Part shown: positions 55,168 through 62,248 of the stretch, in pieces
How the letters are laid out: the number at the start of each line of letters is the position of its first letter
Numbering within the stretch: the stretch's first letter is position 1
Assembly: GCF_020694005.1 (NCBI RefSeq)
Contig: NZ_CP073013.1
Span: 62,001-126,000 of the forward strand
DNA: 64,000 nucleotides
Direction of reading: 5' to 3'
From: Marinomonas profundi
GTDB lineage: Bacteria; Pseudomonadota; Gammaproteobacteria; Pseudomonadales; Marinomonadaceae
Notes under the pieces: generated by a model
The model's input: only the letters and a program-made list of their open reading frames with translations
Database searches by the model: none
What the model was told of the DNA's origin: nothing
Program-made: the position numbers and the translations under genes

Positions 55168-56850
55168 TTAGTTTTGGTTCTCTAGTTGCGCTTTGATCAA
55201 GTCACCAATGGTTGTAGGTCCAGTGGATTCATTTTGTTGTTTCTCTGAGTGAGATTTCAACGCTGCTTTCTCTTCAGTCGCATCTTTTTGCTTGATAGAT
55301 AGCGTGATAGTACGAGCTTTACGATCAACATTGATAATCGCAGCTTCTACTTTATCGCCTTCTTTCAATGCAGTTGTTGCATCTTCAACACGCTCACGGC
55401 TAATTTCAGATACTTTCAACGTTGCTTCAACACCTTCAGCAAGAACCACTACCGCACCCTTCGCATCAACTTCAGAGACAGTACCGTTAACGATAGTGCC
55501 TTTGTCATTTTCAGCAACGAAAGCAAGGAACGGATCTTCTTCTAGCTGTTTAACACCTAGAGAAATACGCTCGCGCTCAGCATCGATAGACAATACTACT
55601 GTTTCTAGCATATCGCCTTTCTTGTATTGACGTACTGCATCTTCACCCGTTTCGTCCCAAGATAGGTCAGATAGGTGAACAAGGCCGTCGATACCGCCGT
55701 CAAGACCAATGAACACACCAAAGTCAGTGATAGACTTGATTGCGCCAGAGATTTTGTCGCCTTTATTGAAAGAAGTAGCAAACTCTTCCCATGGGTTCAT
55801 GGTGCACTGCTTGATACCCAAAGAAATACGACGACGCTCTTCATCAATGTCAAGTACCATAACTTCAACTTCATCACCAATCTGAACCACTTTAGATGGG
55901 TGAATGTTTTTGTTAGTCCAATCCATTTCAGAAACGTGTACTAGACCTTCTACGCCTTCTTCAAGTTCAGCGAAGCAACCGTAATCAGTCAAGTTAGTAA
56001 CTTTAGCAGTCACTTTCGTGTTTTCTGGGTAACGTGCTTTGATAGCAACCCATGGATCTTCACCCAACTGCTTAAGACCTAGAGACACACGGTTACGCTC
56101 GCGGTCGAACTTAAGTACTTTAACGTCGATTTCATCACCAACAGCAATGATTTCGCTTGGGTGCTTAATGCGCTTCCAAGCCATATCAGTGATGTGTAGA
56201 AGACCATCAACACCACCAAGATCAACGAAAGCACCGTAGTCAGTAAGGTTCTTAACGATACCTTTAACTTCTTGGCCTTCTTCAAGAGAAGCAAGCAATG
56301 TTTCGCGTTCAGCGCTGTTAGTCGCTTCCATAACGGCACGACGAGAAACAACAACGTTGTTACGTTTTTGATCAAGCTTGATAAGTTTGAACTCTAGATC
56401 CACACCTTCCAAATGAGACGTATCGCGGATTGGGCGAACATCTACCAAAGAACCAGGTAAGAAAGCACGGATATTTGCGATATCAACTGTGAAGCCACCT
56501 TTGACTTTACCATTGATAACACCGTGAACAATGGCGTTTTCTTCGTAAGCTTTTTCAAGAACAGACCAAGTTTCTGCACGTTTAGCTTTTTCGCGAGACA
56601 ATTTAGTCTCACCGAAACCATCTTCAACAGCATCAAGCGCAACTTTAACTTCGTCACCGATGTTTAGGTTGAACTCACCACTATCCGTTAGGAACTGAGA
56701 ACGAGGAATTACGCCTTCAGATTTAAGACCTGCATGAACAGTTACCCACTCACTGTCAATATCAACAATGATACCAGTAACAATTGAGCCTGGCGCCATT
56801 TCGACGGTTAATAGGCTTTCTTCAAACAGTTCTGCGAAGCTTTGAGTCAT
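55168..56850 (-). CDS. rpsA: 30S ribosomal protein S1
   Basis: 560 residues with six S1 (OB-fold) repeats; brings mRNA to the 30S subunit and unwinds it. Repeat signatures recur, for example [40 protein letters not shown] and [20 protein letters not shown]. The usual downstream ihfB is not present here; a terminator follows instead. The long structured leader suggests autogenous control. Confidence 0.97.
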
Positions 56851-57030: not shown

Positions 57031-57714
57031 TTAAACAAGACCGGCTTTTACTGTCTCAGTAAAAATGATCTCGACAACCTGCTCTATGCTCAAATCTGTG
57101 CTATCTATGACTAAAGCGCCTGCGGCGGGTACAAGAGGAGCAATGGCTCTATTCGCATCTCGCTCGTCTCGTTCTTTAATCGTTTTAACCAATTCATTTA
57201 GATTAACAGCTTCACCTTTTTGCTGCAATTGCATCATACGACGTTGCGCACGTTCCTCAGCCGAGGCCGTTAAAAATATTTTAATCAAGGCAGAAGGAAA
57301 AACCACCGTCCCCATATCACGCCCATCCGCAACCAAACCAGGCGCTTGCGAAAAAGCCCGCTGACGCAGCAACAAGCCCTCACGCACTTCAGGAATCGCC
57401 GCCAATTTTGAGGCACAATTCCCCACCTCTTCGGTACGAATGGCTTGAGTAACGACTTCGCCTTCTAGAATAATTTCAACCTTTCCGTCTTCAGACTGCG
57501 CAAATTGTATATCCAAATGCTCCGCCAAGACTTTTAGCGACTCCACATCATCAGCAGACATGCCATGATGAGACACCGCGAGGGCAAGCAGTCGGTACAA
57601 AGCACCACTATCCAGTATGTGCCATCCCAGCTTTTCTGCGATTAACTGACTGACAGTGCCTTTGCCGGCACCACTTGGACCATCAATCGTAATAACTGGG
57701 CCTTGGTTGATCAT
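57031..57714 (-). CDS. cmk: Cytidylate kinase
   Basis: 227 residues; phosphorylates CMP and dCMP. P-loop GPSGAGKGT (about residues 13-21), the CMP-specific [12 protein letters not shown] and [13 protein letters not shown] are present. It lies 19 nt after the tyrA-aroA fusion and 180 nt before rpsA, the typical order. Confidence 0.97.
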
Positions 57715-57733: not shown

Positions 57734-59980
57734 CTATTGCGTCACCGTGCAATGAAAACCTAATTGCACCGAAACACTCTCCAACTCATTAAATTCTTCT
57801 AATAATTTTTGACAGTCATTTACCTTAGTTACCGACTGACTTCTCGACCCCAGCGCAAGCATGGCCAGCGCAAGCTTATCATCACCCGCACAATCCAGTT
57901 CACCACCCAGCGGAAGACCGCCTTTAATCAGCAAATCACCATTTTCGTAAGTACAAACAATTTTCATCTGGGCAAGCGCATCCACTAACGCCAACACTCT
58001 ATCCTCATAATAATAAGGCAAAGCATTAATCCCCTGTATGCGACTTTCACCCGTTGCATACACCGCTGCCACACACAGTAAGGGCAACTTATCTCTAAAC
58101 TGATAACTCTGCTCTGGCGTTAATAAAAAGCCTCTCAATTCCGCAAAAGCCGCTTTTACCACACCTTCATAAGAACCAAAGCCATCTTGCTCAGGAATCG
58201 TTACATCCGCTCCGATGGATTGCAAAAAACGCAAATACGCAAACGACACAGAATCCAGCCCAGCATTGGTGATAGCCAACTCAGAGCCAGGCAACAAGTT
58301 CGCCAACAACACCAGCCAAGCCGTTTCATATTCATCGCCAGACAAGGTAAGATTTGTACTCATTAACGAGGCAGGTTTAACGCTAAAACCATCCCCATCA
58401 GCAAACATCGTCGCCCCAAAGTGTCGCAACAAAACATCACTGTGAGACAATCCAGACAGCCAAGGTTTAACCTGCCCTTGAGTAGGCGAATACAACGCGG
58501 CTAAAAACGCCGCCATACGCAAACTCTCTGAACCACTTTGCAAATCAATAGAGACATTCGACGCCACACCCGGTACCAAACTCACAGGCAAGCAGTCCGC
58601 CACTTCAGACACAACCTGACCACCCATTTGACGCACCAGAGAAAACAAATCCCCCATTGATTGATTTAAGAGCTTACCTTCTGCTGCAACGACCACAGTA
58701 AAAGACTGCCCCGCCAAAACAGGCAACAACAAATACAAGCTTTCCCTTGATTGATGAACATTAATAGGCGCAATAGGGGCTTTCAAACCACGAAGTCCGA
58801 CTCCATGAATCCGCAGCTGATCCATCGCCACCTCTTCAATAACAACCCCCATATCTCGAAAAGCCTGCATCGTGATACGAACATCGCCAGTCAAATCAAT
58901 GTTCTTTATTTCACTCACACCTTCCGACAGCGCCGCTATAGTAATGGTTTTATGTGACAAAGATTTGTCACCCAATAAAGCAATAGCCCCTTTCATTGCC
59001 GATGCAGGCAAAACCGACACAGATATCGGGCGAGCCTCTTTTACCGAACCAAGCGTCCGCTGCTCCAACAATCGAAGAAAATGGTCACGCGCAGATTTGG
59101 CCCGAGTAAATACACCAAACATACTCGCGCCATCGCCTTGCTCTATCGCCGTGCGCATATCGGCAAGACGGTCAGTAAAGTGATCCAAGGTCGCCAAGGT
59201 CGCGTCTTTGTTAGCAAGAAAAACGTCTCGCCACATCACCGGATCGCTTGACGCAATACGAGTAAAATCACGAAAACCACCCGCAGCGAACTTAAAAACA
59301 TCTTGGCTGCGCTCGCCATTCGCCAACGCATCCACCAAGGTGTAGGCAAGCAAATGCGGCAAATGACTGGAAGAGGCCAACACATGATCATGATGATCTA
59401 CATCCATGCTCACCACATCCGCACCAACCGCACGCCACAAACGATGAAGACGATCCAACAAAATAGGATTACTGTCAGGTAAAGGCGTTACGATCGCCAT
59501 GTGCTTCTCAAATAACTGCGAGTTAGACGCCAATACGCCGCTTTTTTCCGCTCCCGCAATAGGATGACCAGGAATGAAATTTGTCGGCACACAGCCAAAG
59601 ACACGACGAATCGCCGCAACCACACTGCCTTTCGTCGACCCCACATCCGTTATCAAGGTGCGCTCTGACAAAAAAGGCTTAATATCCGCTAAAACCGACT
59701 CCATTGCTCTCACTGGCGTCGCCAGAACAATAACGTCCATCTTAGCAATAAAATCACTTGATAAATCCGCTGGGTAGTCAATCACTCCCGTCGACACACC
59801 TAACGTTAATTCTCCTGCACGTCGATCAACCCCATACAAGGTCGCCAAGCCACGCTCTTTTAGCGCTTTTGCAAATGAACCACCGATCATGCCAAGACCG
59901 ATGATCATGACATTGCCAAATTTCTTCTTTTCTTGGGGCGTCACATCAACAGACACCTGAAAACCACTTTCACCAGTCAA
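57734..59980 (-). CDS. tyrA: TyrA-AroA fusion: prephenate dehydrogenase with a degenerate EPSP-synthase domain
   Basis: 748 residues. Residues 20-310 are an intact TyrA ([44 protein letters not shown]). Residues 315-748 align end to end with the AroA half of the Pseudomonas fusion, but key sites are lost. GNSGT is replaced by HQSRES (409-414) and SLSKRPM by KLLNQSM (436-442). SAQ is replaced by SES (484-486) and the E341 equivalent is K631. The R344 site reads LPYYYEDR, and HR of DHR is replaced by DK (701-702). Only GDKS (337-340), D549 and K725 survive. The dehydrogenase is supported; EPSP-synthase activity is not. Confidence 0.9.
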
Positions 59981-60005: not shown

Positions 60006-61127
60006 TTACAGCACAGCCACAGGATAAGAACCTAACACCTTCACTTCCGATGCACGCTCACGCAATTCTTCTATTACCGCGCGACAACTTTCATCTAAGT
60101 AATGGCCGACGAAGTCAATATAAAATATATACCCCCAGCGACTCATTAAAGAAGGGCGCGTTTCTAGGCGCGTCATATCAACACCATGTCGCTCAAACGC
60201 CTCAAGTAAGCGATACAAAGCCCCCGGCTCATTTTTAGCACTGATCAGTAAAGAGGTTTTGTCTTTACCACTGGGCGGCACATCCTGATTACCAACGATC
60301 AAGAAACGCGTTGTATTGTCTGGGCGATCTTCAATATTAGAAGAGACTTTTACCAAACCATACAATTCACAAGCCACTTCGCCCGCTATAGCCGCAATGG
60401 CCCGACCACTTCGACCCGCATCGGCGGCAAGTCGGGCTGCCTCCGCATTGGAGCTCACCGCAACACGCTCTACATGAGGCCAATAACGGTCCAGCCAAGC
60501 ACGACATTGCGCCAACGACTGCTGATGCGAATAAATATGTGTCACATCATCGGCATTAATATTGGGACTCACCAAAAGATGATGATGAATACGCTCTTCT
60601 ACCTCACCACAAATTTTCAAACGCGAATCGCGAAAACTGTCTAAGGTATGATTAACAACGCCTTCTGTCGAGTTTTCAACCGGCACAACACCATAATTTG
60701 CCGCGCCAGACTCCACTTCACGAAACACTTCATCAATCGCTGCCATAGGCGCACTGATAATAGACTTACCAAAGTGTTTCAACGCTGCTTGCTGTGTAAA
60801 AGTGCCTTCTGGCCCTAAAAACGCAATGCGCATTGGCCGTTCAAGCGCAAGACATGAAGACATCACCTGACGAAAAATCTTCGCCATTTCTTCATTCCCC
60901 AGCGGCCCTTCGTTGCGCTCCATCACTCTGCGTAACACTTGCGCTTCACGCTCTGGGCGATAAAACACAACCGCATCGCCACCCTGCTCGGCCAATTTAA
61001 CGTCAGCGACCTTTTGAGCACAGGCGGCGCGCTCATTAATCAGCATTTGTATTTGTGAATCAATCGAATCGATACGATCACGCAATAAAGGCAGTGTATC
61101 TGGCACTGCTTGCTTAGAGTTTGACAT
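60006..61127 (-). CDS. pheA: Chorismate mutase / prephenate dehydratase (P-protein)
   Basis: 373-residue bifunctional enzyme leading to phenylpyruvate. Residues 10-95 are the AroQ chorismate mutase (LRDRIDSIDSQIQMLINERA); 98-275 the dehydratase (FLGPEGTFTQQAALKHFG, the TRF motif in NTTRFLIVG); 285-370 an ACT domain (KNEPGALYRLLEAFERHGVD, then LETRPS), which gives phenylalanine feedback. It lies between serC and the tyrA-aroA fusion. Confidence 0.96.
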   Translation of the reverse strand: MSNSKQAVPDTLPLLRDRIDSIDSQIQMLINERAACAQKVADVKLAEQGGDAVVFYRPEREAQVLRRVMERNEGPLGNEEMAKIFRQVMSSCLALERPMRIAFLGPEGTFTQQAALKHFGKSIISAPMAAIDEVFREVESGAANYGVVPVENSTEGVVNHTLDSFRDSRLKICGEVEERIHHHLLVSPNINADDVTHIYSHQQSLAQCRAWLDRYWPHVERVAVSSNAEAARLAADAGRSGRAIAAIAGEVACELYGLVKVSSNIEDRPDNTTRFLIVGNQDVPPSGKDKTSLLISAKNEPGALYRLLEAFERHGVDMTRLETRPSLMSRWGYIFYIDFVGHYLDESCRAVIEELRERASEVKVLGSYPVAVL

Positions 61128-61168: not shown

Positions 61169-62248
61169 TTATCCGTGACGCTTTTCAAAGGCACGCATAA
61201 AATCAATCAACGCCTCAATCCCTTCCATCGGCATGGCATTGTATATACTGGCACGCATACCACCAACGGAACGATGCCCAGCCAAAGTACGCAGACCAGC
61301 GGCTTCCGATTCTTGTAAAAAAAGCGATTCCAACGACTCATCCGCCAAAATAAACGGCACATTCATACGCGATCGATAGGCAGGGTCAACCGGATTGGAA
61401 TAAAAAGCACTGGCATCAATGAAATCGTACAGCGCTTGCGCCTTGCGAATATTAATCGCCTCAATCGCCTCAACACCGCCCTGTTCTTCCAGCCATTCAA
61501 ACACCAAATCCGCCAAATAAATCGCAAAAGTTGGTGGTGTATTGATCATGGAATCATTTGCCGCTAAATTGGCAAAATTCCAGATAGAGGGCAATTCATC
61601 ACTGCTACGAGCCAGCAAATCCTTACGAATAATGCAGATCACCACGCCAGCAGGACCGACATTTTTCTGTGCGCCAGCGTAAATCAAGCCATATTTGCTC
61701 ACATCGATCTTGCGAGACAAAATGGTTGAAGACAAATCCGCCACAATCGGCAAACGGGTTTCTGGCAAATCAGCAAACTCTAAACCGCCAATGGTTTCGT
61801 TTGGACAAAGGTGCAAATACGCCGCACTTTCATCCAACGCCAAAGTGGAAAAATCAGGAACCGTAAGATAGCTCTGCTCTTTTGACGATCCCACCACATT
61901 GACGCTAGTGTATCGTTTCGCTTCTTTAATCGCTTTTGAAGACCAAGCACCCGTGTCCAGAAAACAAGCCGAATCAAAGCCATTGACCAAGTTAGCCGGA
62001 ATCTGGGCAAATAAAGTAGACGCACCGCCCTGAACAAACAAAATCTCATAGTCATCGCTAATGTTCATCAAACGCGACAAACGCGCCTTAGCCGATGCCA
62101 GAATAGACATAAACTCAACACTACGGTGGCTCATTTCCATCACAGAAACACCCGCGCCATGCCAATCCAACATTTCAGCCTGTGCTTTTTTCAAAACCGC
62201 TTCTGGAAGCGCGGCGGGTCCAGAACAAAAATTATATACTCGGCTCAT
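61169..62248 (-). CDS. serC: Phosphoserine aminotransferase
   Basis: 359-residue PLP enzyme of serine synthesis, also used in the B6 route that includes PdxJ in this window. It has NFCSGPAALPEAVLKKAQAE and HRSVEFMSI at the N-terminus. The PLP lysine is in YAGAQKNVGPAGV, and the C-terminus has GHRSVGGMRASIYNAMP. It is 41 nt upstream of pheA. Confidence 0.97.
   Translation of the reverse strand: MSRVYNFCSGPAALPEAVLKKAQAEMLDWHGAGVSVMEMSHRSVEFMSILASAKARLSRLMNISDDYEILFVQGGASTLFAQIPANLVNGFDSACFLDTGAWSSKAIKEAKRYTSVNVVGSSKEQSYLTVPDFSTLALDESAAYLHLCPNETIGGLEFADLPETRLPIVADLSSTILSRKIDVSKYGLIYAGAQKNVGPAGVVICIIRKDLLARSSDELPSIWNFANLAANDSMINTPPTFAIYLADLVFEWLEEQGGVEAIEAINIRKAQALYDFIDASAFYSNPVDPAYRSRMNVPFILADESLESLFLQESEAAGLRTLAGHRSVGGMRASIYNAMPMEGIEALIDFMRAFEKRHG

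Follow-up and report, generated by a model that had tools for sequence, protein, structure and literature searches.

The window analysed here is a stretch of 64,000 nucleotides from contig NZ_CP073013.1 of Marinomonas profundi, and the gene under study is a TyrA-AroA fusion located at 57734-59980 of it on the minus strand. The gene is a single open frame of 748 amino acids, and its AroA half runs in frame without a stop, as the initial annotation had stated. The start codon is ambiguous. It may be the TTG at 59980 or the GTG at 59944 (residue 13), and the GTG aligns with the ATG or GTG of many relatives. The TyrA half (prephenate/arogenate dehydrogenase; residues 20-300, 59081..59923; Pfam PF02153 and PF20463) is followed by a linker (residues 301-319, 59024..59080), in which, across 43 Marinomonas sequences, 7 of the 8 positions of residues 301-308 (FLRLLEQR) reach 95% identity or more. 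The AroA domain then comprises an N-terminal block with a constraint close to that of an active gene (residues 320-434, about E. coli 3-118; 58679..59023), a middle block, which is the most relaxed (residues 435-644, about E. coli 119-327; 58049..58678), and a C-terminal block whose last 26 residues are poorly modelled (residues 645-748, 57737..58048). All these features are on the minus strand.

The gene order on this strand is serC (61169-62248), pheA (chorismate mutase/prephenate dehydratase, 60006..61127, the upstream neighbour of the fusion), the fusion, cmk (cytidylate kinase, 57031..57714, the downstream neighbour) and, downstream of cmk, rpsA (55168..56850); the neighbours were named from our reading of the sequence. 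The main text of PMC1173090 gives the order as serC-pheA-tyrA/aroA-cmk-rpsA. The domain order, the gene context and the full length are also the same as in the TyrA-AroA fusion of the upper gamma-proteobacteria, as far as that text describes it (TyrA-AroF in PMC1173090; NF011381 / PRK14806).

PF00275 (EPSP synthase) matched residues 326-726 with 129.5 bits (cut-off 22.8) and with 131.5 bits in the genome search. The fusion scored 144.7 bits with TIGR01356, the AroA equivalog, far under the cut-off of 287.25, and 917.5 with NF011381, the bifunctional TyrA-AroA family, barely over the cut-off of 902. A search with the domain gave 25 loci. Of these, 21 were from named Marinomonas records with 56-79% identity, and the other four were Streptococcus AroA with 25-29%.

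Analysis of the active site revealed that most of the pocket residues are lost from the AroA half. Our pocket set had 19 positions that are invariant in an alignment of E. coli AroA and 24 active AroA proteins or domains; they were chosen on the active set itself, and all 19 are present in 24/24 active sequences. The window domain retains five of them, K22, S23, S169, D313 and R344 in E. coli numbering, which are its K339, S340, S484, D630 and R661. The other 14 are replaced as R27K, N94Q, G96R, T97E, R100Y, R124Q, A170E, Q171S, E336A, K340Y, E341Y, H385D, R386K and T411E (active-set residue, E. coli number, window residue).

In the alignment, the former GNSGT loop is now HQSRE (residues 409-413, 58742..58756), the SLSKRPM-type segment is KLLNQSM (residues 436-442, 58655..58675) with Q440 as the equivalent of R124, and SAQ is SES (residues 484-486, 58523..58531). 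The loss of the GNSGT loop, the SKRPM Arg and the SAQ Gln had been claimed in the initial annotation, and our alignment bears this out. The DE pair and the DHR motif, also said to be replaced, have each kept the D and changed their remaining letters, to DK (residues 630-631, 58088..58093) and DDK (residues 700-702, 57875..57883). The residue before DK, R629, is Ile in 24/24 active sequences and Arg in 47/49 Marinomonas sequences. The former LRVKESDR is now LPYYYEDR (residues 654-661, 57998..58021), where the equivalents of K340 and E341 are lost, that of R344 is retained, and a new Tyr656 is found in 46/49 Marinomonas sequences. The Arg of ELRVKESDR was therefore correctly described as replaced for the one that is now Pro, but not for the one that corresponds to R344. 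For the six E. coli residues named as replaced, G96, R124, Q171, E341, R344 and R386, which in the E. coli enzyme bind shikimate-3-phosphate or phosphoenolpyruvate or do the chemistry, the alignment agrees on five, and R344 is kept as R661. GDKSLSH (residues 337-343, 58952..58972) holds K339 and S340. All of these segments are on the minus strand.

The same loss was found throughout the genus. In our genome collection the family of the window consists of one genus, Marinomonas, with 48 genomes, and the fusion is full length in 48/48. For the reading of residues, the fusions of these genomes and 21 named records gave 49 distinct sequences, in all of which a single open frame crosses the domain. 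Each fusion retains 3-8 of the 19 pocket positions, so the loss in the window is no chance finding. The equivalents of R100, E336, K340, E341, H385 and T411 are lost in 49/49, while those of K22, S23 and R344 are retained in 47, 43 and 48 of the 49, respectively. The replacing residues vary by species, with nine different ones at position 96 (R, A, S, E, I, G, L, P and Q), which indicates that the old site drifts. In 45 sequences the median entropy of the pocket positions was 1.78 bits, whereas a further 103 positions that do not vary among active enzymes had a median of 0.80 (Mann-Whitney p = 0.0008). At fifteen positions that active enzymes conserve, Marinomonas is fixed (≥90%) to another residue, as with H409, P420, L464, W555, R629 and Y656, and E659 is present in 43/43 Marinomonas sequences. 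The matches in three genomes (G002, G008 and G011) cross one stop codon, but the open frames there start at residues 11, 9 and 18, after the stop, which is thus upstream of the protein.

Among the motifs of the TyrA half, which are patterns defined by us, GLG.IGGS, HP.AG.E and GGFRDFTR are present in 49/49 Marinomonas fusions, and S..H.P..LA is present in 36/49. Whereas a bifunctional protein of NF011381 requires two complete active-site sets, the Marinomonas AroA half is without most of its catalytic set, and three of the four TyrA motifs occur in every fusion. The fused TyrA is the only TyrA above the Pfam cut-off upon a profile search of the genome. The same genome also has a sub-threshold match to the TyrA nucleotide-binding family (G000:C1:2093161-2093370; 24.5 bits against a cut-off of 26.5) in a frame of 283 amino acids.

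The initial annotation had expected a separate working aroA in this organism, and a search of the whole genome found one with intact motifs, which is predicted to be active. The genome has three genes with the fold of EPSP synthase (EPSPS): the fused domain, a MurA and, at G000:C1:45079-46425, the separate AroA. The last scored 471.9 with TIGR01356, against the cut-off of 287.25, and its one difference from the E. coli enzyme among the tabulated positions is an Ile in place of M387. Of the 48 Marinomonas genomes, 47 (35/35 and 12/13) gave a separate AroA of the E. coli type, the exception being G068, a draft which is 77% complete. The pocket set is intact in all 34 complete separate copies that were read. 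In the draft Marinomonas genome G011 the separate aroA (L095) lies in two different frames, possibly through an error of sequencing and possibly through a true lesion; in the latter case G011 would have no intact EPSP synthase. A class-level search at E < 1e-150 did not identify the donor of the second aroA, with matches in 2/143 genomes, one of them the own genome.

Selection on the domain, also proposed at the outset, was supported by a comparison across relatives of the ratio of nonsynonymous to synonymous substitution rates (dN/dS, Nei-Gojobori). Of 903 pairs, 19 had both dS values below 1.2, and over these close pairs the median dN/dS was 0.097 for the domain, which is purifying, and 0.030 for TyrA. 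The domain had 0.05-0.12 in each of the 19 pairs and 0.08-0.11 in the three pairs with the lowest dS (0.29-0.51). Between neutral copies at 0.29 substitutions per site, the distance of the closest pair used, about 17 nonsense mutations are expected. Pooled over 11 pairs, dN/dS was 0.033 for TyrA, 0.106 for the dead domain, 0.046 for the separate AroA, 0.061 for cmk and 0.028 for pheA, with several dS values near or above saturation. The pairs for the pooled values, the synonymous windows and the block controls were picked by hand, and they are not all independent, some loci being used twice (L005 in the pooled values; L159, L163 and L177 in the block controls). Columns that are hydrophobic in active enzymes are 87% hydrophobic in Marinomonas against a background of 47%, while polar columns are 20% hydrophobic. 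Judged from these alignments, the AroA half appears to be a pseudoenzyme, that is, an enzyme homologue that has lost its catalytic residues and has been conserved by selection over a long span of evolution.

The constraint is not even along the domain. In the 11 pairs, pooled dN/dS was 0.054 for residues 320-434, 0.135 for 435-644 and 0.094 for 645-745, and dN was lower in the N-terminal than in the middle block in 11/11. Relative to TyrA, the dN values of the N-terminal, middle and C-terminal blocks were 0.42/0.85/0.76 in ten pairs of active fusions from other families and 1.38/3.85/1.96 in twelve Marinomonas pairs. We had considered the N-terminal conservation to be a speciality of Marinomonas, but the control with active fusions weakened this idea, and what sets the genus apart is that relaxation is strongest in the middle block.

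The predicted structure is that of an EPSP synthase. AlphaFold2 on 22 Marinomonas sequences gave a mean predicted local distance difference test score (pLDDT) of 76.2 and a predicted template modelling score (pTM) of 0.74, with block means of pLDDT of 77-95 for window residues 333-712. In a Foldseek search the template modelling score (TM), normalised by target length, was 0.90 for 3rmt_B and likewise for 4n3p_B, a designed hydrolase, and 0.88-0.89 for Acinetobacter baumannii EPSPS (5bs5). It was 0.88 for the unliganded CP4 EPSPS (2gg4) and 0.81 for its complex with shikimate-3-phosphate (2gg6), which suggests that the model is nearer to the open form. By prediction, therefore, the AroA half keeps the EPSPS fold.

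Our preferred explanation, which we regard as somewhat likelier to be right than wrong, is that the fused AroA half is a dead domain that is kept because it serves TyrA structurally or allosterically, without catalysis. With the arrival of an E. coli-type aroA in the lineage the fused half would have become redundant, and it would then have turned into a catalytically dead EPSP-synthase domain. TyrA would have come to depend on this domain as a C-terminal module without catalysis, which may support the folding, the stability or the assembly of the TyrA dimer, or tyrosine feedback. The contact surfaces would lie mainly in the N-terminal block (320-434) and the C-terminal part, and the middle would be freer to drift. 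Since loss of the module would harm the only TyrA of the cell, truncations would be purged by selection. Over a TyrA branch length of 4.34 in Marinomonas (43 tips) the domain was never lost, compared with one loss in each of four clades over about 5.5 units; the clades and the sum of branch lengths were our own choice, and the contrast is a hint only, because the comparison clades were picked for holding a loss.

Several observations count against a role of the domain in TyrA. TyrA carries no AroA domain in relatives from families f37, f8, f6 and f16, so dependence on the domain is not general. The N-terminal block is the slowest in active fusions as well, so its constraint is partly a general property of EPSPS, and all blocks of the dead domain evolve faster relative to TyrA than those of active ones. 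A fold that needs only to avoid misfolding would also yield a dN/dS well below 1. In the structural prediction, the second part of TyrA (pLDDT 45-61, model residues 181-300) and the last 26 residues (38-50) are weak. Constraint at the DNA level may also contribute at residues 315-374 and 705-748, where the proportion of synonymous differences was 0.39-0.44 and 0.32-0.39, against 0.45-0.62 in TyrA windows 15-284. It was 0.61-0.62 in residues 375-434, where the amino acids are equally conserved, so the conservation of the N-terminal block as a whole does not call for an overlapping gene or an RNA element.

The strongest of the alternatives, rather unlikely in our estimation, is passive entrenchment. 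The domain would then be useless to TyrA but, being on the same chain, would have to stay folded and soluble, and selection would act only on misfolding, aggregation or disturbed translation into cmk. The hydrophobic core, which is kept while the pocket drifts, and the relaxation of every block relative to active domains both fit this explanation. However, a clean stop after TyrA would escape the cost, and a stand-alone TyrA is indeed found in relatives with a second aroA in f37, f8, f6 and f16 but in 0/48 Marinomonas genomes. The dN/dS of the N-terminal block, near that of active genes, and the 15 positions fixed to new residues also speak for more than passive maintenance.

It is considerably less probable that the domain is a ligand sensor, in which the remodelled cleft would bind shikimate-3-phosphate, chorismate, an aromatic acid or another anion and tune TyrA allosterically. 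The nearly general retention of the K22, S23 and R344 equivalents would agree with such a role, as would residues that have become conserved next to the old site (R629 in 47/49, Y656 in 46/49, E659 in 43/43). But the pocket positions are more variable than other formerly invariant ones, which makes a sensor in the old pocket the least supported role, and f44 g44, a genus described below, has deleted much of the upper part of the domain and retained the rest.

That the domain is still an EPSP synthase, or catalyses another reaction with another set of residues, is very improbable. The predicted EPSPS fold and the equivalents of D313 and K22 in the window are in its favour, but those of K340, E341, H385 and R100 are gone in 49/49 with replacements varying by species, and a separate AroA is present; we rejected an active enzyme on the pocket residues. 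A neutral pseudogene that is still unbroken, to which the roughly threefold faster evolution of the domain than of TyrA might point, is hardly credible and was rejected on the low dN/dS in all 19 close pairs, the open frame in 49 distinct sequences, the number of stops expected and the absence of losses along the Marinomonas branches.

Our survey of the order covered 194 sampled genomes, with a second AroA called at E < 1e-80. An E. coli-like second AroA was found in 35/194 genomes, belonging to 16/96 genera, and 8 of the 35 were Marinomonas. In order genomes without an E. coli-type aroA, the fused domain was read in selected loci, and 20 control loci were used for dN only. The other 27 genomes with a second AroA comprised eight with a full-length fusion, four with a shrunken remnant and 15 with a TyrA without the old domain. 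Of the eight full-length fusions, four are near-intact, with 19 (G041), 19 (G147), 18 (G103) and 18 (G218) of the 19 pocket positions, and four are partly eroded, with 16 (G225), 14 (G094), 14 (G155) and 13 (G083). Five eroding or near-intact domains (L133-L136 and L139, of G094, G225, G155, G083 and G218) share a Gly-to-Ala difference at E. coli position 96, a site known for glyphosate insensitivity. Where a second aroA is present, this may be a step that is often taken early.

Some of the 15 genomes without the domain may never have had a fusion, because unfused neighbours also occur in the order among the matches listed. We infer loss of the AroA domain only in f37, f8, f6 and f16, where related genomes keep the fused domain. 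In G039 and G047, cmk directly follows tyrA. In family f47 (G194; L154 of G113) tyrA is immediately followed by an E. coli-type aroA, and the two share one open frame of 710 amino acids at a contig end in G194 (G194:C49:24-2090). This arrangement looks like a replacement of the old aroA at its own site by the foreign gene, with a new fusion as the outcome.

A shrunken remnant was found in one independent genus, f44 g44, where 4/4 sampled genomes (G090, G154, G203 and G224; loci L145-L148) have TyrA followed in frame by an AroA remnant of about 300 residues, in frames of 631-647 amino acids, and also have a separate E. coli-type aroA. Pfam EPSP_synthase matched the remnant at E < 0.001 in one of the four, weakly in a second, and not at E up to 1 in the other two, while a profile comparison with active AroA gave a probability of 99.1. 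Compared with intact fusions of the same family (L140 and L141), about 120-150 residues are deleted, approximately window residues 396-541, and a short unalignable stretch stands at the site. The N-terminal start and the C-terminal half are retained, and the active-site motifs are gone. The deletion overlaps much of the stretch that is most relaxed in Marinomonas and also the end of the conserved N-terminal block. The f44 g44 remnant is thus similar to the Marinomonas domain in that a dead AroA is kept in frame behind TyrA beside a second E. coli-type aroA, but differs from it in its deletion and in that sequence similarity is nearly gone.

Trees of both proteins bear on the history of the domain. 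In the TyrA tree Marinomonas forms one clade (100, starred), which adjoins members of f37 (85 in the SH-like approximate likelihood ratio test, SH-aLRT; not starred); f37 is not one group in this tree nor in a larger one. In the tree of the second AroA, with a midpoint root, Marinomonas and f37 are sisters (100/93, starred), which suggests that the second aroA probably predates the split between them. The fused domain was probably still intact at this split and died on the Marinomonas stem. Among its living species, the sister family f37 still appears to include some with an intact fused domain, some with an eroding one and some with none. More tentatively, and with some doubt on our part, we propose that a second aroA repeatedly turns the fused AroA into a non-catalytic module, a new kind of regulatory or assembly domain of TyrA built out of the pathway's sixth enzyme, in at least two independent lineages (Marinomonas and f44 g44), with the N- and C-terminal parts kept and the middle relaxed or deleted.

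Domains of shikimate-pathway enzymes have been reused in regulation without catalysis in fungi, where the regulators QUTA and QUTR derive from domains of AROM. These are separate transcription regulators, unlike a domain on TyrA. Our searches of the open-access literature found nothing joining AROM, EPSP synthase and QUTR, nor did they list any paper that describes a dead AroA fused to TyrA in Marinomonas.

A closer parallel is P. syringae. According to the main text of PMC1173090, a TyrA family survey from 2005 in which Marinomonas is not mentioned, about 200 residues of the fused AroF have been lost in P. syringae and a stand-alone aroF, resembling the gene of Agrobacterium tumefaciens, has been gained by lateral transfer, a situation termed unusual; the authors suggested there that the truncated AroF remnant might become a new regulatory domain. 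As in P. syringae, the fused AroA of Marinomonas is disabled, TyrA is kept and a second aroA has been acquired. Unlike the product of the P. syringae deletion as described there, the Marinomonas domain is full length, folded by prediction, genus-wide and under measured selection, and the second aroA is E. coli-like instead of Agrobacterium-like. As far as the published description goes, the Marinomonas case is a larger and better preserved instance of the idea voiced for P. syringae.

These results have consequences for annotation and for the study of the family. Because the NF011381 score is above the cut-off, automatic annotation by this family would call the protein bifunctional despite the loss of most of the catalytic set, and prediction of the aromatic pathway in these genomes is better based on the separate aroA. 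The case also bears on the suggestion made for Pseudomonas syringae in the main text of PMC1173090. Within one order there is a natural series after the takeover of a reaction, which runs from a fused domain that is intact or eroding, through one that is dead or shrunken yet still maintained, to none at all. This series makes the change from a catalytic to a structural or regulatory domain testable, with the intact sister proteins as starting points.

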